This document shows, one piece after another, positions 7,268-25,787 of a stretch of DNA of 34,533 nucleotides. Origin of the DNA: Desulfobacteraceae bacterium. Lineage in GTDB: Bacteria > Desulfobacterota > Desulfobacteria > Desulfobacterales > Desulfosalsimonadaceae. The stretch spans positions 1-34,533 of the forward strand of contig JAQIBZ010000283.1 of the NCBI GenBank assembly GCA_027858815.1. Direction: 5' to 3'. The position numbers and the translations under genes are program-made. Under the pieces are notes generated by a model that did not search any database, had not been told where the DNA came from, and saw only the letters and a list, made by a program, of their open reading frames with translations. Every line of letters begins with the position of its first letter. Positions within the stretch are counted from its first letter, which is position 1.

Positions 7268-7976
7268 ATCTTTTTATTGCTACATAACCGCCAAAGAGAT
7301 AGGCTTTAAAAAATTTTTGAACCTGAATAAAACCCGCTTCTATAAATAGCAATTCGATACGCTTTTCAGATATGAAGTGAACCTCTTTTTCACGCATTGC
7401 AAATTCTTCATTAACCCTATCGTTTTCGGCTCTTATAAATAGCTGCTGATTTTTCCAGGCAGCATTGAGAACATTATATTCATCTGAGCCAATCTCTCCT
7501 TCAAGATCAACAAGAACTATAGGTGCACCTGGTTTTAACTTGTCCGCAATGGCTTTCAAGAAATACAATTTTGCACCATCATCAGGTAAAAAGTGCATAA
7601 CCAGAATAGCTGTGGCAGCATCAAAGTCTTTCTCTGCTACATCATCAATTAGTCCCAGCACAAGGGAGATTTTGCTCTTCAGAGTGGCCGCCGCTACTTT
7701 TTCCCTGGCAATAGAAAGCATCGGCTCTGCTGGATCAAAACCGGTAAAAGACCAATTGGGATTGTTTTGTGAACAGTCAATTATCTCTTTTCCTGTTCCA
7801 GCACCTGCCACTAAAATTCTCGCCACACTGTTCAGCCTATCCCTTAGAAGGTGCTGTGTTAACTCATAAATGGCTTGATAAGCAGGTATTATTTTATGTG
7901 CGGTATCATCATATTCATTGGACCATTCACCATTGAAATCTATTTGTTTTTCCATAAGTATAGACTGCCTTATCAA
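7266..7976 (-). CDS. Class I SAM-dependent methyltransferase (integron cassette gene)
   Basis: ILVAGAGTGKEIIDCSQNNPNWSFTGFDPAEPMLSIARE (SAM motif I/II); LVLGLIDDV; ILVMHFLP. Confidence 0.88.
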   Translation of the reverse strand: MIRQSILMEKQIDFNGEWSNEYDDTAHKIIPAYQAIYELTQHLLRDRLNSVARILVAGAGTGKEIIDCSQNNPNWSFTGFDPAEPMLSIAREKVAAATLKSKISLVLGLIDDVAEKDFDAATAILVMHFLPDDGAKLYFLKAIADKLKPGAPIVLVDLEGEIGSDEYNVLNAAWKNQQLFIRAENDRVNEEFAMREKEVHFISEKRIELLFIEAGFIQVQKFFKAYLFGGYVAIKR

Positions 7977-8024
7977 AGCCTTTAGTTATTAATTATCCAG
8001 TTTAAATCTATTTTTTCAGCAAGA

Positions 8025-8150
8025 TAACGTCTCCCGGTCACCTGCGCCGAAAGCTCCCACAAAAGTTGTAAAAAGAACAAATATTTTCTATACATCAATA
8101 TCTGAAAAAACGCCAGCTTTCGGCGTCAGAGTGCGCCGGGTTGTTGGGCG
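8025..8150 (-). repeat. attC-like site (end of first cassette), long type
   Basis: TAACGTCTCCCGGTCACCTGCGCCGAAAGCT pairs with AGCTTTCGGCGTCAGAGTGCGCCGGGTTGTTGGGC. Confidence 0.88.
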
Positions 8151-8159
8151 GTGCATTAG

Positions 8160-8933
8160 CTATTTCTGTCCATATATTACCATGCGAAGAGACTCGTAAA
8201 GAACATGCTTTTGCTTTTCCATTTCATTCAGTATTTCTATAGCCTTTTCTCTTTTTCCAATTTTAAGGTACACTTTTGCCAAATCCATATGAGTCATACT
8301 GAGTTGATCATCAAGATCAATTGACTTTTTATAGCTCTGTATCGCCAATTCGAGTTTACCAAGACCATGATACGCATCGCCAAGGCCACCATGTGATATA
8401 ACATGAGTTGGATTTGCTCTTAAAGCTACTTTGTACTCTATTATGGCTTTTTCATAACGCTTGTTGTTGAGGTGGTCTACTGCAATATGATACCGGGCCA
8501 TATAATGGTTTGGGTTTAGTTCTGCAGTGCGTTTGAACTCTTTGATTGCCTTTTTTTCATAGTTTGGTTGTAGGCCGTATGTCTCAAGGGTGCGCTGTAA
8601 TTCATCATCAGTGATTTCCCCCTGCGAGGGAGGACTGTTCACTATTTGTTCATAAATATAACTTTGAGTAGCTGCTCTATGTGATCTTTGATATTTTTTG
8701 AAAAATACATATCCAAGCAAAAAATGGGCTTCGTCGGAATCTGGTTTGATTGATATTGCATGTTCGTATTCGTCCTGCGCTTTATCAAGGTTCCCCTGCC
8801 TATGAAAATCCTTGCCTTGGAGAAGGTGATATTCAAAATTATTGCCTGTGTCTGGCCCATCCTCTTCAGCTTGTATGTTCACAACAATGCTTAAAACAAG
8901 CAATAGTGCTAAAAATGTAATGTAAATTTTCAT
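8160..8933 (-). CDS. TPR-repeat protein with signal peptide (first cassette)
   Basis: MKIYITFLALLLVLSIVVNIQA signal peptide, followed by TPR units (A..YHIAVDHLNNKRYEKAIIEYKVALRANP, AHGGLGDAYHGLGKLELAIQSYKKSIDLD). Start chosen at 8933 rather than the track start 8957. Confidence 0.85.
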   Translation of the reverse strand: MKIYITFLALLLVLSIVVNIQAEEDGPDTGNNFEYHLLQGKDFHRQGNLDKAQDEYEHAISIKPDSDEAHFLLGYVFFKKYQRSHRAATQSYIYEQIVNSPPSQGEITDDELQRTLETYGLQPNYEKKAIKEFKRTAELNPNHYMARYHIAVDHLNNKRYEKAIIEYKVALRANPTHVISHGGLGDAYHGLGKLELAIQSYKKSIDLDDQLSMTHMDLAKVYLKIGKREKAIEILNEMEKQKHVLYESLRMVIYGQK

Positions 8934-8950
8934 AATTAACTCTCTGTAGC

Positions 8951-9112
8951 CCAACAATTATTGGAAGTACTAATCGGCGCTTTATTTTACGCCCAATTTG
9001 CTTACGAAATCTTCATATCACGCCAATTGGGCGTATATTACCCGAAATAAGGGTGATATGAGGAAAAAGTTCTTGATATCACATTTATCAATATGATAAC
9101 TTGAAAGCCATG
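8951..9112. promoter_or_regulatory. Putative attI region between intI and the first cassette
   Basis: Minus-strand GTTGGGC core site at 8957-8951 just before the first cassette gene. Inverted repeat TACGCCCAATT (8988-8998) / AATTGGGCGTA (9025-9035) and TTACCC...GGGTGA nearby. Confidence 0.6.
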
Positions 9113-9126
9113 TGAACAAATGTTCA
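9113..9126. promoter_or_regulatory. Putative LexA box TGAACAAATGTTCA
   Basis: Perfect palindrome containing GAAC-N4-GTTC, 59 bp upstream of the preferred intI start (9185). Confidence 0.75.
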
Positions 9127-9184
9127 TTTTATTTGGCTTTTGGATTATCTTATCATGAAAACTTGTCAATTTAAAGAGGTATTT

Positions 9185-10156
9185 ATGCTCAATTCGCCAA
9201 AACTTCTGGATCAGGTAAGAAATCTCATTCGTTTGAAGCACTATAGCATAAGAACAGAAGGGACTTATGTCAGTTGGATAAAACGCTATATTTATTTCCA
9301 TAACAAACGACACCCAAAGGATATGGGAGAAAATGAAATCCGGCAATTTTTAACCGATCTGGCAGTAAATCGGAAAGTCGCTGCTTCGACCCAAAACCAG
9401 GCTTTTAATGCATTACTGTTTTTATATCGTGAGGTATTGAAACAGGAATTTAATAATTTAGGGGATGTGGTACGTGCGAAAACAACCCGAAAACTGCCGG
9501 TTGTATATACCCAGTCAGAAATTCGCATCATTATAAACCAGCTTGAAGGCCGGAACTGGCTGATGGGCCAGACAATGTATGGTGCAGGATTAAGGGTTAT
9601 GGAATGCGTTCGTCTACGGGTAAAGGACATTGACTTTGGTTACCGACAAATAGTTGTGCGTGACGGAAAAGGCCGTAAGGATCGAATTACCTTACTCCCG
9701 GATATTATGGTTGATAATCTTAAAAGACATCTTGAAAAAGTCAAATCGATTCATGATTTTGACCTAAAAGCGGGTTTCGGAACTGTTTACATGCCCTATG
9801 CACTGGAAAGAAAATATAAACATGCAGATCGAAGTTGGTCATGGCAATGGGTATTTCCTGCGTCAAAACGGTCCATTGATCCACGGAGCAAAATTGAGCG
9901 GAGGCATCATATAAATGAGTCTGTTATTCAGAAGGCCGTCAAAAAAGCGACTCGCAGTGCCGGCATAACAAAAACAGGCAATTGCCATGCCTTGCGCCAT
10001 TCCTTTGCAACCCACCTTCTTGAATCCGGCTATGATATTCGGACCATACAGGAACTGCTGGGGCACAAAGATGTATCCACCACCATGATCTATACCCATG
10101 TGCTCAACCGTGGCGGTCGTGGGGTAAAGAGTCCGGGGGATATGTTATGGAGCTAA
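9185..10156 (+). CDS. intI: Integron integrase (tyrosine recombinase)
   Basis: R...[39 protein letters not shown] catalytic region, plus the IntI-type insertion [42 protein letters not shown] before ATG 9185; the track start at 9140 is also possible. Confidence 0.95.
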
Positions 10157-10773
10157 CCGACAGACAACTGAGTGTTTATGAATATATCCTTCACCATCAC
10201 CAGCAGCATAGCATGGCGCCCACGGTTCGGGAGATCTGTGAATACCTGGGATTAAAAGGGCCGGCCGGTGTTCACCGGATTTTAAATGTGCTGATTGACA
10301 AAGGATTTATCGAATCCATTTCCGGTAAAAAGCGGTCATGGCGGCCAATTCTCAGCCCTATGATCGGACTATATGAGGCAAAAACAATTCCCTTGGCCGG
10401 GCATATTGCCGCGGGAACCCCCATTAGTATATATGAGCATGTGGAAGAATATCTTCCGGTTGATCCGGCTTTATATGGTTATGAATCATGTTTTGCCGTC
10501 AGGGTAACGGGCGATTCCATGATCGACGCCCATATTGCCGACGGCGACCTGGCCATCATTGTGCCGGTCAATGACACAGATGACGGCTCCATTGCTGCGG
10601 TTATTGTGGAAGATATTCTGATTGAGGCAACCCTGAAAATCATTCGCCGCAAGAAAAATGTCATTGAACTGCATTCCGCAAACCGCAAGTACCCTCCGAT
10701 CATTTTCAAAGGAAAGGACCGGAAAAAAATCCGTATTGTCGGGAAGTATGTGGGGCTGATCCGGGTTAGATAA
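10147..10773 (+). CDS. lexA: LexA-family SOS repressor / S24 peptidase
   Basis: Winged [15 protein letters not shown]...[31 protein letters not shown]; Ala-Gly cleavage site [16 protein letters not shown] Ser; EATLKII Lys. Confidence 0.93.
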
Positions 10774-11606: not shown

Positions 11607-11850
11607 CTATCCACCGGCAATGGGTTGAAAAATTTTGATTTGGGCACCGTCTTTCAGAGGAGATTTTTTCTTCAAAGCCCTGCCGTCCATGCTAACGATT
11701 CCCAATCGTTTTGGCGCAAGATTTAAATAAACCAAAAGGTCATCAATAGATGCTTCATCCGCGATAAAGACCTCAAGGCCGCTCAAATGATCATACCCGT
11801 CAAAAGAGCGGCCCAGTGTTCCATATAATTTAACAGTCAGTCTCAATGAC
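11607..11850 (-). CDS. MoaD/ThiS-family ubiquitin-like sulfur carrier
   Basis: RLTVKLYGTLGRSF...IKIFQPIAGG with terminal GG. Start uncertain (probably a TTG near 11847); the track start at 11906 lies inside the upstream gene. Confidence 0.8.
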
Positions 11851-11853
11851 AAA

Positions 11854-13587
11854 TCATTTCTCAAAAAAGTTAAATGTCGTATCCATTTCCTGATCCGAAA
11901 TAACAACTACTTTGTTAAACGGGGGAAGCGGTTCTTCATAAAACATTTTCGGCAGGCGATCATCTTCTTTTGTGAACCCGGCTTTTCTGTTAAATTCAAC
12001 TTCTATTTGAAGGACTTTTTTTCCAATATTATGCCAATCTTCTTCGGAAAAAGGTTTTCCTGATTTTGCCGCTACCATTTTACAGACATTCCCAACACCG
12101 TCAGGAGCGCCAAATCCGGTCTGGGCAAAGTCACATATTCCCACTGTATCAACGAGAATCATATGTATCTGGGCATCCCTGGATGCCTTTACCTGGCCTT
12201 TGGAAGAGAATCGATCCAATGTGCCGCCAAATTCTTCGAGGTTGGAATCAACCACCCAGCCAGCCGTATGATCAGCGCCCATGGGACTTGTCGCATACGT
12301 CACTGCCATGCCATTGATCACCCGGGGATCATAAGCGGAGATGCTTTGGCCTTTCACCACCGGAACCCTGTCGTGATTAAAATGTTTGCCCACCCGCTCG
12401 GGGCCGTGCCCGATAAGTTTTCCGAACTCCGTGCCTTTGGCAACTTCTTCAACCATTTCAATGGCAGCCTGAGCATCACCAAATTCTCTGTACCCGGCAT
12501 CCATAGCAACGGCAATTGCCACTCCGGTGCTAATCGTATCCAACCCGATATCATCACAAAGAAAATCAAGTTGTGCAATGGCATCAAGATCACTATTACC
12601 AAGCATCCCTCCCATTGACCAGATGGTCTCATACTCAAGAGAGGAAGTGACGTATTTTCCCTGCTCATCCACATATTCATTGGAACAGTTAATGATGCAC
12701 TGGGCACATCCTTTATGATTTTGTATTCCGCCACGGCGTTTAATAATCCGGGCCATGGTTTCGCCGCTTATTTTATCCGCATCTTCAAACTGGCCTTCTC
12801 TGGCATTCCGGGTGGGATATGCGCCGGCTGCATTAATGGGTTCAAGCAATACTGCTGAGCCGAATTCAGCCAGTTGTTCGGTAAATTCATCTGCCAGAAC
12901 TGCCTTGGCAAATATCTTCGCGCTGTCTTTAAACGTTTTTATGTCATGAATGGGTTCGGCATTTTTGGCATTTTTTTCAACAACAATCGCTTTTAACCCC
13001 TTGGACCCCATGACGGCACCGAGTCCGCCACGTCCGGCAGCACGACAGGGGCGGCCGTCCCTGTCTGTGGCCTGGATGGATGCCGCAGACAATTGAAGCT
13101 CGCCGGCAGGACCGATGCAGAGCATGCTTGTATTGTCTCCGTGGGCATCATTGAGAACGGTCACCAGCTCATATGTCCTTTTGCCCCAAAATGCGGTTGC
13201 ATCCAGTAAGACGGCATTACCCGTCTGGTCGATTTTTAAGATAAAAAAATGATCTTTTTCAGGTTTACCTTCGATAATGATGGCTGAAATGCCAATATGC
13301 CCGAGATCTGCGGCAATCGTTCCACCCACATTGCTCTCCTTGATTCCACCGGTCAAAGGGCTTTTTGCCCCTACGGAAAGCCGGGAGGAATTAACAAGGG
13401 ATGAACCACTCAAATATCCGGGCGCAAAAATCAATTTATTTTCAGACCCGAGGGGATCACACATTGGCGGCACTTCTTTGTTAATAAAAAAAGACGTCAG
13501 CCCGCGCCCTCCCATTCCGGTGAAAGCGGGTTCGATATCTTCATTGATGATCGTTGCTCTATCCATATCGACCCTTAAAATTTTCAT
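11854..13587 (-). CDS. Aldehyde ferredoxin oxidoreductase family (tungsten pterin) protein
   Basis: MKILRVDMDRATI..., GRGGLGAVMGSKGLKAIVV, GCAQCIINCSN (CxxCxxxC), DTVGICDFAQTG. Confidence 0.93.
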   Translation of the reverse strand: MKILRVDMDRATIINEDIEPAFTGMGGRGLTSFFINKEVPPMCDPLGSENKLIFAPGYLSGSSLVNSSRLSVGAKSPLTGGIKESNVGGTIAADLGHIGISAIIIEGKPEKDHFFILKIDQTGNAVLLDATAFWGKRTYELVTVLNDAHGDNTSMLCIGPAGELQLSAASIQATDRDGRPCRAAGRGGLGAVMGSKGLKAIVVEKNAKNAEPIHDIKTFKDSAKIFAKAVLADEFTEQLAEFGSAVLLEPINAAGAYPTRNAREGQFEDADKISGETMARIIKRRGGIQNHKGCAQCIINCSNEYVDEQGKYVTSSLEYETIWSMGGMLGNSDLDAIAQLDFLCDDIGLDTISTGVAIAVAMDAGYREFGDAQAAIEMVEEVAKGTEFGKLIGHGPERVGKHFNHDRVPVVKGQSISAYDPRVINGMAVTYATSPMGADHTAGWVVDSNLEEFGGTLDRFSSKGQVKASRDAQIHMILVDTVGICDFAQTGFGAPDGVGNVCKMVAAKSGKPFSEEDWHNIGKKVLQIEVEFNRKAGFTKEDDRLPKMFYEEPLPPFNKVVVISDQEMDTTFNFFEK

Positions 13588-14972
13588 GGCATTCCTCTTT
13601 TTTCATCCATTGTCGCGATGATGCTCTCTTTGAGAATATCGACTATCTGATCAACGCCTGCTTTATCAATAATTAACGGCGGGGATAATATACATAAATT
13701 TTCATACGGCCGGACAATCAGCCCTTTTTCCTGACAAAATTCATCCACTCTTTGCGCAACGGCTATATTCTCATCTTCATTGTCAGAAACCACGCATTCA
13801 ACACACGCCATTAAATTAATACCGCGAACATCACCAACAATAGGAAGCTCCTTTAACGTTTTCAGGCGTTTCATGAAATAAGCACCCACCTCGAGGACAT
13901 GGTCGTTTATTTTATCCCGCTTCATGATTTCAAGATATTTTAAGGCAGCCGCACACGTCACCGGATGTCCGGAATAGGTAAATCCATGGGTATAATAAGA
14001 CTTCTCGGCAGCAGCGTCTCCGCTGATCTGATTCACCAGTTTTTCTGAAATGATTGCCGCACCCAATGGTTGATAACCGGATGTGATTCCTTTTGCCACG
14101 GTAATAATATCCGGAACGATGCCGAAAACCTCTTCTGATGCAAAATAATGCCCCAGCCGTCCAAAAGCGGTAACCACCTCATCGGAGATATACAGCACGT
14201 TGTATTCTCTGCATACATCCAATGTCTTTTTATGATATCCACGGGGCGGAACAATCACCCCACCGGAACCCATGACCGGTTCGGCAATAAAACACGCCAC
14301 CTTATCCGGCCCGATCTCTAAAATTTTATCCCTTAATTCGCTGACCTTCAGATCACAAAAATCCTCTATGCTCATTCCCTCAGGTCTTTTATATGGATTG
14401 GGATCAGAGGTGGAATGAACAATATCGGTTACATAATCAAAATAGCTTCTGTCACATTTTTTACCATTTAAGGAGGCCGTTAAATAGGTGCTGCCATGAT
14501 AGGCATTCTCACGATAAATAATGTGTTTTTTTTCAGGTTGGCCCAGACAATTAAAATAATAATGGGCAAAGCGGATCGCTGATTCAACAGCCGTTGAACC
14601 GCTGTTTGTAAATTGGAAACAGTTCAGATCACCGGGGGTTAATTTGCTGAGTTCAGATGCCAACTGGATAGAGGGAGGACTCGTCATCGCGCCAAAAGGT
14701 GTATAATACGCCAGTTGAACACACTGGTCTGAAATAGCTTTTGCCATTTCTTTATTTCCATACCCCAGGTTCACACACCACATACCTGAGATGGCATCAA
14801 GGTATCTGTTGCCCTCATTATCAAAAACATGAACCCCTTTAGCGGATTCAATAATCATAGACTCAGCATCACTTCCCAGATCCGACCACGGATGGATAAT
14901 GTGTTTTTTATCTTTTGCTGCAAGATTTATATCTTTTCCCGCAAGAATCATATCTTCTTCTTTAAAATTCAT
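13584..14972 (-). CDS. Class III (omega) aminotransferase, PLP-dependent
   Basis: NSGSTAVESAIRFA, YHGSTYLTASLNG, FIAEPVMGSGGVIVPP, YISDEVVTAFGRLG, ITVAKGITSGYQPLGA. Start 14972 preferred (AAAGGATATT-ATG). Confidence 0.92.
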   Translation of the reverse strand: MNFKEEDMILAGKDINLAAKDKKHIIHPWSDLGSDAESMIIESAKGVHVFDNEGNRYLDAISGMWCVNLGYGNKEMAKAISDQCVQLAYYTPFGAMTSPPSIQLASELSKLTPGDLNCFQFTNSGSTAVESAIRFAHYYFNCLGQPEKKHIIYRENAYHGSTYLTASLNGKKCDRSYFDYVTDIVHSTSDPNPYKRPEGMSIEDFCDLKVSELRDKILEIGPDKVACFIAEPVMGSGGVIVPPRGYHKKTLDVCREYNVLYISDEVVTAFGRLGHYFASEEVFGIVPDIITVAKGITSGYQPLGAAIISEKLVNQISGDAAAEKSYYTHGFTYSGHPVTCAAALKYLEIMKRDKINDHVLEVGAYFMKRLKTLKELPIVGDVRGINLMACVECVVSDNEDENIAVAQRVDEFCQEKGLIVRPYENLCILSPPLIIDKAGVDQIVDILKESIIATMDEKRGMP

Positions 14973-14980
14973 AATATCCT

Positions 14981-16195
14981 TTAAATTAATATATTTTCCG
15001 AGACCTTCCCCCGCATACAATGATTCGACATCATGGATGACGCATATCCGCCCGCATTGATAAAAACAAGGGGGTCTCCTTCCTTGATCTGATCCGGCAT
15101 GGAAAAATTATCTTTCCATACATCCAGCGACTCGTTGATATTGCCCACAATCGTAACGGTTTTCATCTTGTCTGTTTTTTGCTGATGAACCACCGGCTCA
15201 CAGGGCAGTCCGTAAAACGTCGGTTCAATGGCCAGGTTAAACCCGCCATTAACACCGATAAAATCCGTTGCCCGTTTTCTCTCAACCGTATTGACCTCCA
15301 ACACCAGAATACCGCTGTCTTTGACAATATAGTCTCCGGGTTCAACACAAATGGTCAGCCCTTTATTTCCAAAATGGGACTTTATAATCGAAACCCAGGC
15401 ATCCAGATCCAGAGACACATCATCAATGTCATGAGGCACCCCGAGCCCGCCGCCTAAGTTAACAAACTTCAAATCTTTCACTTTGTCCGTAAACCAGTGC
15501 GTGGCATCCAGGATTTCATTAAATATGGATAATTGATTGTTCAGATAACCGCATCCGGTATGAAAATGGATGGTCTCCACGATGAAGTTATGCTCCGCAG
15601 CAAGCCGCAGCGCTTCTTCAAACTGCTCCCTGTAAATACCAAACTTGGTGGTTTTATCTCCGCTGTATTTGAGTGTTTCATTATCCCGGTAACCAACACC
15701 CATAGCCGGGTTAACACGGATGCCGATTCTGCGATTTTGACAAAACTGTCCCAATCGCCGGATGGTACTTAAAGAATCACAATTTAAAGCCACATCCGGA
15801 TTATCGGCAAGTAATCTCAACTCATCATTGGTCATTGCATGAGCTGTATATGAAATTTCACTGCGTTTAAAGCCGCAGGAAAACGCATGCAATAATTCAT
15901 TGGGAGAACATATATCCGCACCACAAGAGCAATTATTTTTAATATACGTCAGGACAGGGGCAAACCGGTTGGCTTTTATTGCATAAAAAATTTTATACGC
16001 ATCAAGCTGGCTCAAGGCATTATGCAATCGCTCGATATTCGCAGCAATCCGGCGTCCGCTATAGAAAAAAGCCGGAGTATGCGTTAAACCGATTAAATCT
16101 GTCACAGAATTCCCGGAGAAAACCAACTGCCCGTCTTTATAGCAAAGATCTTCCCTTTCCCACCACAAACGGTTGTTTTGTGGAATCATCCACAC
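14981..16195 (-). CDS. Fold-III PLP-dependent decarboxylase-like protein (LysA/ODC family), divergent active site
   Basis: FYAIKANRFAPVL, HFHTGCGYLN, NLGGGLGVP, EPGDYIVKDSG, NAGGYASSMMSNHCMRGK; usual CE/DSxD motif reads NESLD. Confidence 0.88.
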   Translation of the reverse strand: MWMIPQNNRLWWEREDLCYKDGQLVFSGNSVTDLIGLTHTPAFFYSGRRIAANIERLHNALSQLDAYKIFYAIKANRFAPVLTYIKNNCSCGADICSPNELLHAFSCGFKRSEISYTAHAMTNDELRLLADNPDVALNCDSLSTIRRLGQFCQNRRIGIRVNPAMGVGYRDNETLKYSGDKTTKFGIYREQFEEALRLAAEHNFIVETIHFHTGCGYLNNQLSIFNEILDATHWFTDKVKDLKFVNLGGGLGVPHDIDDVSLDLDAWVSIIKSHFGNKGLTICVEPGDYIVKDSGILVLEVNTVERKRATDFIGVNGGFNLAIEPTFYGLPCEPVVHQQKTDKMKTVTIVGNINESLDVWKDNFSMPDQIKEGDPLVFINAGGYASSMMSNHCMRGKVSENILI

Positions 16196-16656
16196 TTCCT
16201 TTCCAGGTCTCGAAGGTATTTTCTGCCTGAATCATTAATCGATTCTTTTCGACCGGTCACCCATCCCCGACAGTTAACCGAACCGCAGACACAAGGAAAT
16301 TGTCGGAATAATATATCTTCTGTTGAGGCATAATCCATTGTCAACGCCTCTCCTTTTTCAATATCCTGCAATGCCCAGATTTCAAGCTTGTTCATGTCCA
16401 GGCATACAAGCGGATCACACGAATGTAACAAAAGTCCTGAAAAGTGCGGGTCATAGAGATGCAGGTGGGGGGTAATCTGAAGGGTATGCTGAAGAATATA
16501 AGGCACCGTAATTCCCGTCATTCTGGCAACCATCTCTCCCTTTTTAAAATGGCGTTCTACATAAATGCCGTTTCCTTGTGTTTCGCAATGGTTAATCGTG
16601 AAATCATCAATAACTGGATAGTCTTTGCCGCTTTCCAACTCATAAGGATAAATCAT
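16186..16656 (-). CDS. SET-domain protein (putative protein-lysine methyltransferase)
   Basis: GNGIYVERHFKKGEMVA, LLHSCDPLVCLDMNKLEIWALQDIEKGEALTMDYASTED, post-SET CVCGSVNCRGWVTG. Confidence 0.88.
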   Translation of the reverse strand: MIYPYELESGKDYPVIDDFTINHCETQGNGIYVERHFKKGEMVARMTGITVPYILQHTLQITPHLHLYDPHFSGLLLHSCDPLVCLDMNKLEIWALQDIEKGEALTMDYASTEDILFRQFPCVCGSVNCRGWVTGRKESINDSGRKYLRDLERKCG

Positions 16657-16718
16657 TGTGTCCTCTTTCTGTTTACATGTAATAATTAGTCTCTGAACAA
16701 AAACCCTGAAATTAAGTT

Positions 16719-16803
16719 GTCATTACGAGGAGTGAGGAACGAACGACGAAGTAATCCCCTGTCTTTAATGAGATTGCTTCGGTCGTGCCTCCCTCGCAAC
16801 GAC
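16719..16803. repeat. REP/MITE-like palindromic element
   Basis: GTCATTACGAGGAGTGAGGAACGAACGACGAAGTAATC ... GAGATTGCTTCGGTCGTGCCTCCCTCGCAACGAC are imperfect inverted arms; outer TAATTAGTCTCTGAAC/GTTCAATCACTAATTA flank the element. Confidence 0.75.
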
Positions 16804-16907
16804 AAAATATTCATTATTGAGGGACTTTCCGTTCAATCACTAATTAGTTAAAATAAGAATTCCCTCTAAAGAACAAAAAATATGGCTGATAATTTGGTGA
16901 ATCACCA

Positions 16908-18113
16908 CTACGCCGCTTTCAAAATTTTAGACGCTTTTTGCAGTGCCTCGACTTTATCAGGCTGTTCCCACGGAAATATGTCTCTCCCAAAATGACCATA
17001 TGCAGCGGTCTGGCGATAGGACCAGCTTTCCGGTTTTGTCAGATTCAGGTTTTCGATGAGTGCTGCCGGGCGAAAATCAAAAATGTCACTGTCTTTTACA
17101 ATCATCTCAATAATCGATTCATCGATAAGTGCTGTCCCGTAAGTATCGACATTGATTGATACCGGTTTTGAAACACCAATGGCATAGGCGACCTGAATTT
17201 CACATTTTTCAGCCAGGCCGGCCGCAACGATATTTTTTGCCGCATAGCGGGCATAATAGGCAGCCGAACGATCCACCTTGGACGGATCTTTTCCTGAAAA
17301 AGCGCCGCCGCCATGGCTCCCGACACCGCCGTAGGTGTCCACGATAATTTTTCTTCCGGTCAGTCCGGCATCCGCATAGGGTCCGCCAAGGTAAAAAGTA
17401 CCCGTCGGGTTAATAAAATATTCGGTATCCTTTTTCAGCAGTCCGGTGGATTGAAACTGATCCTTGACAACTTCGATCAGGTCTTTGCGAATTTTTTCCA
17501 ACGACACCTCATCGGTCTGGTGGGAAATTACCACTGATTTGATAAATTCCGGACGGCCGTGATTATATGCGACGGATACCTGGGCCTTGGAATCAGGTCT
17601 GAGGTATGAAATTTCTTTTGATTGCCGCATGTTCTCAAGGGTCTTGAGAAGCCTGTGACTATAGGCGATAGGAGCGGGCATCATTTCCGGTGTTTCGGAT
17701 GTGGCATACCCGAACATCATTCCCTGATCGCCGGCGCCTTGCTCATCATAGAGTCCTTCACCCCGGGTGACGCCCTGGGAGATATCCGGTGACTGGCCAT
17801 GGATTCGACTGATATACTCAAAATTATCGCCACAAAACAAAAGTCGTTCATCGTCATATCCGATTTCATTGACAACCTGTCTGGCAATTTTTTCCGGATT
17901 TATTTCTTCCCATCCATTGCATGTAATCTCTCCCACATTTGCAACCAGATTATATCCTGCCATGGTTTCACAGGCCACACGACCTTTGGGATCTTTTTCA
18001 AGGCATGCATCAACAATTGCGTCTGAAATCTGATCACATATTTTATCCGGATGTCCGCTACCGACAGATTCTGATGTAAATACATGCTTGCTGCTGATCT
18101 TACTCATAATCAA
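16908..18113 (-). CDS. metK: S-adenosylmethionine synthetase
   Basis: HVFTSESVGSGHPDKICDQISDAIVDA, GGGAFSGKDPSKVDRSAAYYARYAAKNIVAAGLA. Confidence 0.97.
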   Translation of the reverse strand: MIMSKISSKHVFTSESVGSGHPDKICDQISDAIVDACLEKDPKGRVACETMAGYNLVANVGEITCNGWEEINPEKIARQVVNEIGYDDERLLFCGDNFEYISRIHGQSPDISQGVTRGEGLYDEQGAGDQGMMFGYATSETPEMMPAPIAYSHRLLKTLENMRQSKEISYLRPDSKAQVSVAYNHGRPEFIKSVVISHQTDEVSLEKIRKDLIEVVKDQFQSTGLLKKDTEYFINPTGTFYLGGPYADAGLTGRKIIVDTYGGVGSHGGGAFSGKDPSKVDRSAAYYARYAAKNIVAAGLAEKCEIQVAYAIGVSKPVSINVDTYGTALIDESIIEMIVKDSDIFDFRPAALIENLNLTKPESWSYRQTAAYGHFGRDIFPWEQPDKVEALQKASKILKAA

Positions 18114-18222: not shown

Positions 18223-18239
18223 ATGCCATATTCGTGCCA
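18223..18239 (-). promoter_or_regulatory. Putative sigma54 (-24/-12) promoter upstream of metK
   Basis: Minus strand TGGCACGAATATGGCAT: GG and GC dinucleotides with canonical spacing, ~110 bp upstream of metK. Confidence 0.6.
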
Positions 18240-18596: not shown

Positions 18597-19970
18597 ATGG
18601 ATTCGAATATGAATAATTTAAAAATTTTGGTCGTGGAAATCGGCCAAGTTGTATTCAACCAAATCAGACATATTTACAGTGATCAGCCTACCAAGATTTT
18701 CCTTGCCAAAAGTCTTGGGCATGCCTTTGAAAAATTTGAAGAAATGACTTTTGATATCCTTATTATCAACGGTTCGGCCCTCAGGCACAACATCTTCCAC
18801 TCTATAGACCTTTTAGAAACCATTTCCGATAATTGTTCGATAACCCAAATCATCATCCTTGCTGAAAAAAAAGATCTTAAAGCGGCATCCTCTGCGTTGA
18901 AAACCGGCTCGTGCCAGTATTCAAGACTGCCGATCGACGACAACGAGCTCAAGATGTTAATTGACGCAGCAGTTCACAACAGACCGGAATTTGGAATGAA
19001 CAATCTGTTAAAAGATGATATCAAAAAAATATCATTCCATGACATGGTCGGCATTTCCGGACTTATGAAGGATGTTTTCAGACAAGTCCGTCAGGCCGCC
19101 ATGACAGATATCCCCGTATTAATCAGCGGGGAAACCGGTACGGGTAAGGATCTGGTTGCAAATGCCATACACCAGATCAGTGCGAGACAAGAATATCCGT
19201 TTATCCCGATCCACCTTGGATCGCTTCCATCCGAACTGGTCTCGAGCGAACTTTTCGGACATGAAAAAGGTGCCTTTACCGGCGCATGGAAGCGATACAA
19301 AGGGTCTTTTGAAAAAGCGAAAAAAGGGACAATCTTTCTTGATGAAGTCGGAACCATTGATCAAAAAAATCAGATAGCGCTTTTACGGGTTTTGGAGACA
19401 CAGTCTTTTAGCAGAATCGGTGGAACGGTTAATGTTAAAACCAATGTCCGGGTGGTTGCAGCAACCAATGAAAATCTTGCTGTTGCGGTTGCAAAGAACA
19501 AATTCCGGGAAGATCTTTTTTACAGGCTCGACGTTTTTTCAATAATCATACCCCCTGTAAGAAACAGACCCGGAGATATTTCCCTTCTGGTGGATTACTA
19601 TCTGAAGCGGTTCAATGATGCTTATCAAAAAAATATCATGGGGCTTTCACCGGAATGTATTTCCATCATGGAATCTTATGAATGGCCGGGAAATGTCCGG
19701 GAGATTAAGAACATCATCCACAGGGCAGTGGTGATGTGCGCCGAAAAGGTGCTCCTGCCAAAACATCTCCCCAAAAGACTTTTAGAAGGCAGCGGAAACA
19801 GTCATCCGGTAGATATAAAAGTCGGGGACACTATTGAAGAGGCAGAATACAAGCTTATTACTGAAACCTTAAACGTCAATATGAACAACAAAAGCAATAC
19901 AGCCAGGATATTAGGTATCAGCCGGAAGGCGCTGTATAATAAATTAGAAAAATATAACCTGATGCTTTAA
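18597..19970 (+). CDS. Sigma54-dependent transcriptional activator (AAA+, Fis-type HTH) with degenerate receiver domain
   Basis: GETGTGKDLVANAIH, ELFGHEKGAFTGAWKR (GAFTGA), GTIFLDEVG, C-terminal NTARILGISRKALYNKLEKY; N-terminal region lacks a phospho-Asp (FDILIINGSA). Confidence 0.92.
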   Translation: MDSNMNNLKILVVEIGQVVFNQIRHIYSDQPTKIFLAKSLGHAFEKFEEMTFDILIINGSALRHNIFHSIDLLETISDNCSITQIIILAEKKDLKAASSALKTGSCQYSRLPIDDNELKMLIDAAVHNRPEFGMNNLLKDDIKKISFHDMVGISGLMKDVFRQVRQAAMTDIPVLISGETGTGKDLVANAIHQISARQEYPFIPIHLGSLPSELVSSELFGHEKGAFTGAWKRYKGSFEKAKKGTIFLDEVGTIDQKNQIALLRVLETQSFSRIGGTVNVKTNVRVVAATNENLAVAVAKNKFREDLFYRLDVFSIIIPPVRNRPGDISLLVDYYLKRFNDAYQKNIMGLSPECISIMESYEWPGNVREIKNIIHRAVVMCAEKVLLPKHLPKRLLEGSGNSHPVDIKVGDTIEEAEYKLITETLNVNMNNKSNTARILGISRKALYNKLEKYNLML

Positions 19971-24212: not shown

Positions 24213-25787
24213 TCAAATGCGAAAGCTTTCAGATTGGCCGCCATATTTTTTTCTTAAAACCGGTTTTTCAATTTTCCCCGTTGGATTCCTTGGGACTTCA
24301 TCAAAAATGAATTTTTTGGGTCGTTTGTATCGTGGCAGTGAAGAGCAGAATTCGACCAGTTCTTCGCTGGAGACATTCCGCCCTGTTTTGATTTTAACCA
24401 CTGCCGCAACAATTTCGCCCAACCGGGTGCTTGGAAGTCCGATTACAGCCACATCCTGAATCAGGGGATGCGCCTGTAAAAAATCCTCTATTTCTACCGG
24501 GTAGATATTTTCACCGCCAGTGATGATGACATCTTTTTTTCTATCCACCAGCCAGATAAATCCGTCCGCATCCTCCTTCGCCACATCGCCGGTGCAGAGC
24601 CACCCATCCGTGAGCACCTCCCGGGTGCCCTCCGGATTTTTGTAGTACTCTTTCATAATGCCCGGTCCTTTGACCATGAGTTCTCCCGGCATCTCCGGGC
24701 CTAACGGGTTGAGCTTGTCATCCACAATCTTATATTCCCAATCAAAACCCGGTCGTCCAATGGCACCGACCTTGTGCATGTTTTCTATCCCCAGATGGAC
24801 GCAGCCAGGTCCGGTGGATTCGGTGAGGCCGTAATTGGTGTCGTACAAATGATGCGGAAATATCTTCTTCCATTCCTGAATCAGGCTTTTGGGAACAGGC
24901 TGAGCACCGATATGCATGAGTCGCCATTGGTCCAGTTCATAATCGGAAAGTCGGATGTCTCGATTTTCGATGGCAAAGAGGATATCCAGTGCCCAGGGAA
25001 CCAGAAGCCAGACAATGGTGGCCTTTTCTTCGGATACAGCTTCGAGGATGTATCGGGGCTCGATTCCTTTTAAAATAACCGCTTTTGCTCCCACGATAAA
25101 GTTTCCAAACCAATGCATCTTCGCTCCGGTGTGGTAAAGCGGCGGGATACAGACAAAATTATCCTCATGGGTTTGGTTATGGTGGCGATTTTCGGTAATC
25201 GCAGAAGCTTCCAGCGTTCGATGCGTATGAAGCACGGCCTTGGGATCACCCGTGGTTCCGGAAGTAAAGTAAAGCGCTGCGTCATCGGTAATACAGATAT
25301 CCACTTTTGGATCATCTGATTTTTGATCTGCGGTAACGGTATCAAAGGATTCTGCATAGTCCGGTGTTTTTTCAGAAGGTCCGGTGAAAATATACGAAGA
25401 GACGCCGGGCTCGAGGTCCGGCCGGATGGCATCTATGCGTTCGATAAACTCCTCACCAAAAATGATCATCTTCGCCTCGGCAACCTGAGTGCAGTAACTG
25501 ATTGTTCCGGCCTCAAAACGAAAATTTAAGGGTACTGCCAGGGCACCGGTTCGTAATATTCCGAAATAGATGGGAAGCCAGTTCAGACAGTTGGTCATGA
25601 GCTGTACCACCTTGTCACCTTTTTTGATGTTCCTTTCAATTAATCCCCGGGCAGTTTGGTTTGCCAGGGCGTCAAACCGGGCCCAGGTGATTTCCGTACG
25701 CTGTTCCAGGGCGGGAATCCGTTCCACAAGGGCCGTTTCATTGCCGTACATTCGGGCGTTTCTTGCCAGTATCTCTGTAATGAGCAT
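24213..25787 (-). CDS. AMP-binding acyl-CoA synthetase / CoA ligase
   Basis: YFTSGTTGDPKAVLHTHRT, GWLCTGDVAKEDADGFIWLVDRKKDVIITGGENIYPVEIE, PRNPTGKIEKPVLRKKY. Confidence 0.93.
   Translation of the reverse strand: MLITEILARNARMYGNETALVERIPALEQRTEITWARFDALANQTARGLIERNIKKGDKVVQLMTNCLNWLPIYFGILRTGALAVPLNFRFEAGTISYCTQVAEAKMIIFGEEFIERIDAIRPDLEPGVSSYIFTGPSEKTPDYAESFDTVTADQKSDDPKVDICITDDAALYFTSGTTGDPKAVLHTHRTLEASAITENRHHNQTHEDNFVCIPPLYHTGAKMHWFGNFIVGAKAVILKGIEPRYILEAVSEEKATIVWLLVPWALDILFAIENRDIRLSDYELDQWRLMHIGAQPVPKSLIQEWKKIFPHHLYDTNYGLTESTGPGCVHLGIENMHKVGAIGRPGFDWEYKIVDDKLNPLGPEMPGELMVKGPGIMKEYYKNPEGTREVLTDGWLCTGDVAKEDADGFIWLVDRKKDVIITGGENIYPVEIEDFLQAHPLIQDVAVIGLPSTRLGEIVAAVVKIKTGRNVSSEELVEFCSSLPRYKRPKKFIFDEVPRNPTGKIEKPVLRKKYGGQSESFRI

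Follow-up and report, generated by a model that had tools for sequence, protein, structure and literature searches.

Gene content of the operon and its first three enzymes

The stretch of DNA analysed here (the window) comprises 34,533 nucleotides of contig JAQIBZ010000283.1 from a Desulfobacteraceae bacterium (GCA_027858815.1), and its minus strand carries an operon of five genes that we examined as a candidate route to dimethylsulfoniopropionate (DMSP). In order of transcription, these genes encode a SET-domain protein of 156 amino acids (16186-16656), a fold-III pyridoxal phosphate (PLP) decarboxylase with the N- and C-terminal Orn_Arg_deC domains of Pfam (14981-16189), a class-III aminotransferase (13584-14972), an aldehyde:ferredoxin oxidoreductase (AOR) of 577 amino acids with AFOR_N and AFOR_C domains (11854-13587), and a ThiS/MoaD-like protein (PF02597; 11607 to ~11846) with an inferred TTG start codon. 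All five proteins passed the curated Pfam cut-offs, each in its own family. The SET and decarboxylase genes overlap by 4 bp (ATGA), as do the aminotransferase and AOR genes, and the remaining gaps are about 8 to 10 bp. A preliminary description of this DNA had reported five tightly spaced minus-strand genes, and all five are present where it placed them.

The solved structure nearest to the SET protein is BurB, the first enzyme of the published bur route, in which BurB is followed by BurI (decarboxylase), BurD (aminotransferase), and BurE (dehydrogenase) (PMC7496086, PMC12542666). BurB forms S-methylmethionine (SMM) from methionine and S-adenosylmethionine (SAM) in vitro and is required for DMSP in vivo (PMC12542666, PMC7496086). 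With phmmer, the window protein matched BurB (9l4t) with an E value of 5.5e-46, and the next match was MLL1 (E 4.8e-07). An AlphaFold2 model with 26 family members as input (pLDDT 78) was best fitted in Foldseek by the BurB-SMM-SAM complex 9l4v (TMq 0.86, 51% identity), whereas histone methyltransferases reached TM values of ~0.55-0.65 at ~20% identity. When residues were mapped following the published BurB numbering, the SAM- and methionine-site residues H72, T73, S88, H93, Y124, and R133 were identical in the window protein, and the cysteines C95/C137/C139/C144 were retained. Across 48 aligned SET sequences, H72, H93, and Y124 are invariant and position 73 is Thr or Ser. By sequence and modelled fold, the window protein is a member of the BurB family of L-methionine S-methyltransferases, predicted to catalyze step 1, and its reading as a protein-lysine methyltransferase is not supported. 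It had previously been suggested to methylate lysines of the operon enzymes; because it would instead act as the first metabolic step, a search for protein-lysine methylation would be misdirected. No homologue of a second methionine S-methyltransferase, MmtN, was found in the window genome, in a search that had no positive control.

For the decarboxylase, the nearest solved relatives are diaminopimelate decarboxylases (DapDC). It scored 211 bits against the lysA model TIGR01048, below the cut-off of 297.9, and the best lysA match of the window genome lies elsewhere (C334). Identities as LysA or as a polyamine or exosortase-type decarboxylase were rejected, every curated cut-off having been missed. 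At the EPGR position of DapDC, decarboxylases paired with SET carry EPGD (EPGT or EPGE in a few); in addition, the family has GCGY in place of the DapDC HxGS region, and N-[IV]-N-E-[SA]-L-D replaces the DapDC cysteine motif C-E-x-x-D, with N-E-S-L-D in the window. This EPGD/GCGY/NINEALD signature is distinct from LysA and common to decarboxylases paired with SET and those paired with MmtN. On a plasmid of Rhizobium lusitanum (L107), the decarboxylase adjoins a class-I methyltransferase that matches the MmtN structure 7VVV with an E value of 3.9e-105, and on a plasmid of Rhodovulum sp. P5 (L105), it lies beside an NF005447 aminotransferase and an MmtN reading. Since MmtN and SET are unrelated but form the same product, the decarboxylase partner that they share indicates SMM as its substrate, and the window enzyme is predicted to be an SMM decarboxylase in the BurI role (step 2). 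We also considered a SET protein that methylates free lysine to trimethyllysine on the way to valerobetaine, and dropped it because BurB is the nearest solved relative and MmtN the alternative partner of the decarboxylase.

The mmtN gene of Rhodovulum sp. P5 (L105:5944-8174; NZ_CP015040.1) was overlooked by annotation. It is divided between two reading frames (7321-7578 and 7524-8159) and lies in part within the annotated decarboxylase coding sequence, owing to a frameshift, a sequencing error, or a fusion.

Aminotransferases of the window, Eleftheria, and Rhodovulum all exceed the cut-off of the equivalog model NF005447. Members of this family stand beside MmtN in Rhodovulum and, in Eleftheria, beside a BurB-like SET gene with aldehyde dehydrogenase (ALDH) and AMP-binding/polyketide synthase (PKS) genes. 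The window enzyme is predicted from these matches to be a DMSP-amine aminotransferase in the BurD role (step 3). In Desulfosarcina cetonica (L011:9636-11010), the aminotransferase gene is fragmented by frame changes, as a pseudogene or a draft-assembly error.

Exchange of aldehyde dehydrogenase and AOR at the last step

The AOR, predicted to oxidize DMSP-aldehyde in place of BurE (step 4), has 1aor and 9mqx as its relatives among solved structures. Its cluster cysteines C294, C297, C301, and C485, a Glu-rich EYETIW at 318, and H440 align with the Pyrococcus furiosus AOR, and its family would imply tungsten rather than molybdenum and ferredoxin as the acceptor. MoaD-like open reading frames (ORFs) also adjoin related AORs in L009, L096, and L100.

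The operon slot that AOR and MoaD occupy in the window holds an ALDH in Desulfatibacillum, Desulfosarcina, and Desulfobacula. This ALDH exceeds the cut-off of the aminobutyraldehyde dehydrogenase model NF010000, and betaine-aldehyde dehydrogenases are among its next best matches. Only two genomes were found with AOR and MoaD in the slot: that of the window and its sister Desulfococcaceae SF_100_bin68 (L009/G005), which belongs to the same genus and carries the full operon at 91-96% protein identity. In the window genome, no ALDH matches the exchanged enzyme at E<=1e-40, the best match in the sister genome is at 32%, and no ALDH remnant was found adjoining the window AOR. Conversely, the four ALDH-type genomes searched contain no AOR above 47% except one 59% paralogue in Desulfobacula.

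Among 98 AOR relatives, members with 67-76% identity occur in genomes without the SET family of the operon. The closest of these outside AORs (G041, 76%) forms a clade with the window AOR (support 98/99) and adjoins a MoaD-like ORF; its neighbours encode agmatine deiminase, N-carbamoylputrescine amidase, putrescine/ornithine carbamoyltransferase, and 4-aminobutyrate aminotransferase. Further related AORs have PotA/PotD or a putrescine aminotransferase in their vicinity. Because the nearest AORs sit in polyamine gene clusters, the ancestral substrate was likely 4-aminobutyraldehyde, and since the replaced ALDH belongs to the aminobutyraldehyde family, both enzymes would act on short cationic aldehydes, a type that includes DMSP-aldehyde. 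The AOR probably arrived in the operon later than the ALDH, given that groups as far apart as Desulfobulbus, Thiorhodococcus, and Eleftheria have the ALDH form. In a tree of SET, decarboxylase, and aminotransferase, the AOR form is nested among ALDH-bearing Desulfobacterales, with support of 97 for the window and G005 and of 57 and 71 at the next forks; this gives only moderate backing to the order of ALDH first and AOR later, the main argument for which is how widely the ALDH form occurs.

Conservation and regulation of the operon

A scan of genome contigs yielded 46 loci with the SET family of the operon, and the pairing of SET and decarboxylase is seen again in Desulfobacterota, Myxococcota, and Alpha- and Gammaproteobacteria, so that the neighbourhood is conserved beyond close strains, the point on which the preliminary description had made its proposal depend. 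Desulfatibacillum alkenivorans, Desulfosarcina cetonica, and a Desulfobacula metagenome-assembled genome (MAG) have the order metK-SET-decarboxylase-aminotransferase-ALDH, with extra genes after metK in Desulfobacula. In Desulfobulbus rhabdoformis and Thiorhodococcus drewsii, the order is decarboxylase-SET-aminotransferase-ALDH, the first three genes of which occur in the same order in Thiorhodococcus minor. The soil bacterium Eleftheria terrae combines SET, aminotransferase, gamma-aminobutyraldehyde dehydrogenase, and decarboxylase genes with AMP-binding and PKS genes in a single cluster, an arrangement like that of the bur cluster.

Other SET loci have different surroundings. Two-gene modules of SET and decarboxylase occur at L016-L020, L022-L025, L029, L031-L033, L053, L102, and L103 (Desulfobulbaceae, Desulfoluna, Myxococcota, Niveispirillum, and others), and their product may be DMSP-amine, or DMSP by way of unlinked enzymes. 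At three Pandoraea loci (L026, L027, and L035), SET at 8001 is followed directly, in place of a decarboxylase, by a PLP enzyme resembling methionine-gamma-lyase or O-succinylhomoserine sulfhydrylase (~8435-9690); this enzyme could release dimethyl sulfide from SMM, which would make it a possible, so far unreported, source of that gas. In alpha- and gammaproteobacterial MAGs (L021, L041, L045, and L054), an ornithine decarboxylase-like fold-III enzyme with ~25% identity to that of the window precedes SET. Those that were aligned keep the EPGR and TCDS motifs, and they may represent a second decarboxylase type acting on SMM. Stand-alone SET genes in a conserved neighbourhood with no decarboxylase homologue are found in Pseudomonas (L030, L034, L036-L040, L042, L043, L046-L048, and L050-L052).

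Upstream of SET by 251 bp, on the same strand, lies metK, encoding a methionine adenosyltransferase (16908-18107; TIGR01034, 508 bits). It is the third of three metK copies in the 95%-complete genome, and a dedicated copy, as we predict it to be, fits the SAM demand of the pathway. A gene for a sigma-54-dependent transcriptional activator (PF00158 and HTH_8; plus strand, 18597-19970), the predicted regulator, is divergent from metK. Upstream metK is kept at 89-95% in L009 and L010 and at 65-68% in L011 and L012, and the activator is found at the corresponding place at 96% and 89% in L009 and L010 and at 47% in L012. The five genes of the operon as first delimited therefore stand, but that outline stopped one gene short, since metK and the sigma-54-type regulator belong to the conserved unit of the closest relatives. 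Between metK and the activator, upstream of metK on the minus strand, is a sigma-54 (-24/-12)-like element, TGGCACGAATATGGC (18225-18239), which occurs once in the window against 0.04 expected. D. alkenivorans has the identical 15-mer ahead of its metK, and D. cetonica has a TGGCAC-N5-TTGC element. The operon is probably induced through sigma-54. Terminator and sigma-70 scans of the operon region gave no clear excess over shuffled sequences. Desulfobacula has two genes between metK and SET, one DUF39/homocysteine-synthesis-like and the other small and of NIL type; this pair presumably serves homocysteine synthesis, which would fit methionine as the starting material.

The tight spacing of the operon is not fully conserved, as the sister copy has gaps of 163 bp between decarboxylase and aminotransferase and of 231 bp between aminotransferase and AOR. 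Both of these gaps contain short repeats, and the gene order is intact despite the repeat invasion. A different, palindrome-like repeat (GAGGCACGACCGAAGCAATCTC ... TTCGTCGTTCGTTCCTCACTCCTCGTAATGAC) lies in the metK-SET gap of the window (16700-16820). Downstream of the operon (9140-10773), a gene for a tyrosine recombinase with an integron-integrase-like N-terminal domain (PF13495) overlaps a LexA repressor gene, and the two are possibly an integron integrase with its own LexA.

Proposed pathway, alternatives, and relation to known systems

Taken together, family membership, kept active-site residues, gene order, and the exchange at the last step, all of them features of the sequence, make it very likely that an anaerobic member of the Desulfobacterota uses the operon for DMSP biosynthesis by methionine methylation, with AOR standing in for BurE and electrons kept as ferredoxin. 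MetK would provide SAM, and the BurB-type SET protein would transfer its methyl group to the sulfur of free L-methionine, giving SMM and S-adenosylhomocysteine. The PLP decarboxylase would convert SMM to 3-dimethylsulfoniopropylamine (DMSP-amine) and CO2, and the class-III aminotransferase would convert the amine to DMSP-aldehyde. With water and two oxidized ferredoxins, the tungsten AOR, an oxygen-sensitive type of enzyme, would then yield DMSP and two reduced, low-potential ferredoxins, the MoaD-like protein helping in assembly of the AOR cofactor. Sister lineages would use a betaine/aminobutyraldehyde-type dehydrogenase for the last step, for which AOR and MoaD were swapped in by the window lineage. 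We infer each substrate from homology and partnership, and likewise the direction of the pathway, the accumulation of DMSP, and its physiological role, which is likely to provide a compatible solute or stress protectant. The preliminary description had correctly read the order of enzymes, from amino acid through amine and aldehyde to acid plus reduced ferredoxin. Its "undescribed pathway," however, is a published one, the four steps Met > SMM > DMSP-amine > DMSP-aldehyde > DMSP (PMC7496086, PMC12542666).

Several points weigh against this assignment. The window SET protein departs from BurB at R42, A44, R70, V130, M132, and H138, and because all contacts of BurB with methionine are made through the main chain (PMC12542666), sequence alone does not fix the substrate. 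The BurI role of the decarboxylase was assigned through a stand-in, the decarboxylase of the Eleftheria terrae cluster (49%). Many loci hold SET and decarboxylase without an aminotransferase or aldehyde enzyme, and this two-gene module may have other uses. Just two genomes, from a single genus, show the AOR form; both are drafts in fragments, and the named one is a MAG. A polyamine-type AOR might serve another aldehyde. If so, the first four genes would lead to DMSP-aldehyde, to be oxidized by housekeeping enzymes, and AOR and MoaD would be hitch-hikers acting on other aldehydes such as 4-aminobutyraldehyde. The polyamine clusters around the nearest AORs favour this idea, as do burE mutants, which still yield the downstream product in reduced amounts (PMC7496086). 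We nevertheless consider it unlikely, given that the AOR gene overlaps the aminotransferase gene by 4 bp in the exact position of the ALDH of its relatives, that it is retained in the sister genome although repeats have spread the genes apart, and that the window genome is without a close homologue of the exchanged ALDH.

Other explanations concern the product or the first enzyme. SMM or DMSP-amine might be made and consumed for methyl storage or sulfur overflow, with no accumulation of DMSP, as the many genomes with SET and decarboxylase only and the methionine-gamma-lyase-like partner of SET in Pandoraea would suggest; the complete four-step set in the window and five related loci, including an aldehyde-oxidizing enzyme, makes this distinctly improbable. 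It is very unlikely that DMSP is just an intermediate of a specialized metabolite of the gonyol or cyclopropanol type, as in Burkholderia. The burB gene was discovered in such a cluster (PMC7496086), and homologues in Eleftheria terrae and Rhizobium lusitanum adjoin AMP-binding and PKS genes, but no nonribosomal peptide synthetase (NRPS) or PKS was seen adjoining the operon in the window or in L009-L014, and one AMP-binding protein of the window (24213-25787) is encoded more than 4 kb past the regulator among unrelated genes. We give very little credence indeed to a SET protein that methylates protein lysines, for instance of the operon enzymes, beside genes that degrade lysine, ornithine, or diaminopimelate. 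The Pfam SET domain, the public annotation of such proteins as "protein-lysine N-methyltransferase," and the DapDC structures nearest to the decarboxylase are in its favour. Yet BurB is the nearest solved relative by both sequence and fold, a SAM synthetase travels with the operon, and the decarboxylase lacks the EPGR arginine and the C-E-x-x-D cysteine of DapDC and partners with MmtN elsewhere.

DMSP is a stress-protecting sulfur compound and a main precursor of the climate gas dimethyl sulfide, and its producers are taken to be algae, plants, and, among bacteria, mostly aerobic ones; sulfate reducers are known as its consumers. If the operon makes DMSP, sulfate reducers would also be producers, and AOR would have its first role in making an osmolyte. 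With more reserve, we favour the broader view that anaerobes of anoxic sediment, sulfate reducers and their relatives, make DMSP de novo, one lineage conserving energy through AOR instead of an NAD(P)-linked ALDH. Cultured strains with the candidate anoxic DMSP genes include Desulfatibacillum alkenivorans DSM 16219, Desulfosarcina cetonica, and Desulfobulbus rhabdoformis DSM 8777, and Thiorhodococcus drewsii and Thiorhodococcus minor are further cultured carriers. The database names "protein-lysine N-methyltransferase" for the SET protein and "diaminopimelate decarboxylase" for its partner would need correcting. We know of no AOR that acts in DMSP synthesis. The literature searched, which was incomplete, likewise yielded none; the sole paper naming both concerns the dimethyl sulfoxide reductase superfamily.

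The route itself is known, and the SET protein, decarboxylase, and aminotransferase add new members to families already described. As far as we found in that literature, the novelty lies in the presence of the BurB route in Desulfobacterota and in several further phyla, and in the replacement of ALDH by AOR. According to a 2026 review, reports of BurB are confined to B. thailandensis (PMC13360808). Plant-like MMT genes were noted earlier in some Deltaproteobacteria (PMC9135737), so methionine S-methylation in this group is not wholly unexpected. A 2025 study of anoxic saltmarsh found only Roseovarius-type dsyB and no mmtN, does not mention burB in its main text, and raised the possibility of further unknown DMSP synthesis genes in anoxic sediment bacteria (PMC12596276).

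Compared with known systems, the window operon resembles the bur module of Burkholderia thailandensis in its first enzyme (51% identity, fold, and active-site residues) and in the order of chemistry, but it stands alone with metK in an anaerobe, is free of NRPS/PKS genes, and has AOR and MoaD for the final aldehyde dehydrogenase. Four reactions are shared with MSMT/SMMDC/DMSPAAT/DMSPADH of Streptomyces mobaraensis, a likeness drawn from the published description only; these enzymes (Liao & Seebeck 2019) are described as homologous to the Bur enzymes in the papers that cite them (PMC7496086, PMC12542666). S. mobaraensis differs in being an aerobic actinomycete with an aldehyde dehydrogenase at the final step. 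The MmtN pathway (PMC9135737) converts methionine to SMM as predicted for the window, and MmtN stands beside a window-type decarboxylase in Rhodovulum and Rhizobium, but as a class-I (Rossmann) enzyme it has no relation to the window SET protein. With the tungsten AORs (P. furiosus 1AOR; 9MQX, 8C0Z, and 9G7J), the window AOR shares the AFOR_N and AFOR_C domains, the iron-sulfur cysteines, and the active-site positions, and it differs from them in forming its own sub-clade with the AORs of polyamine clusters.

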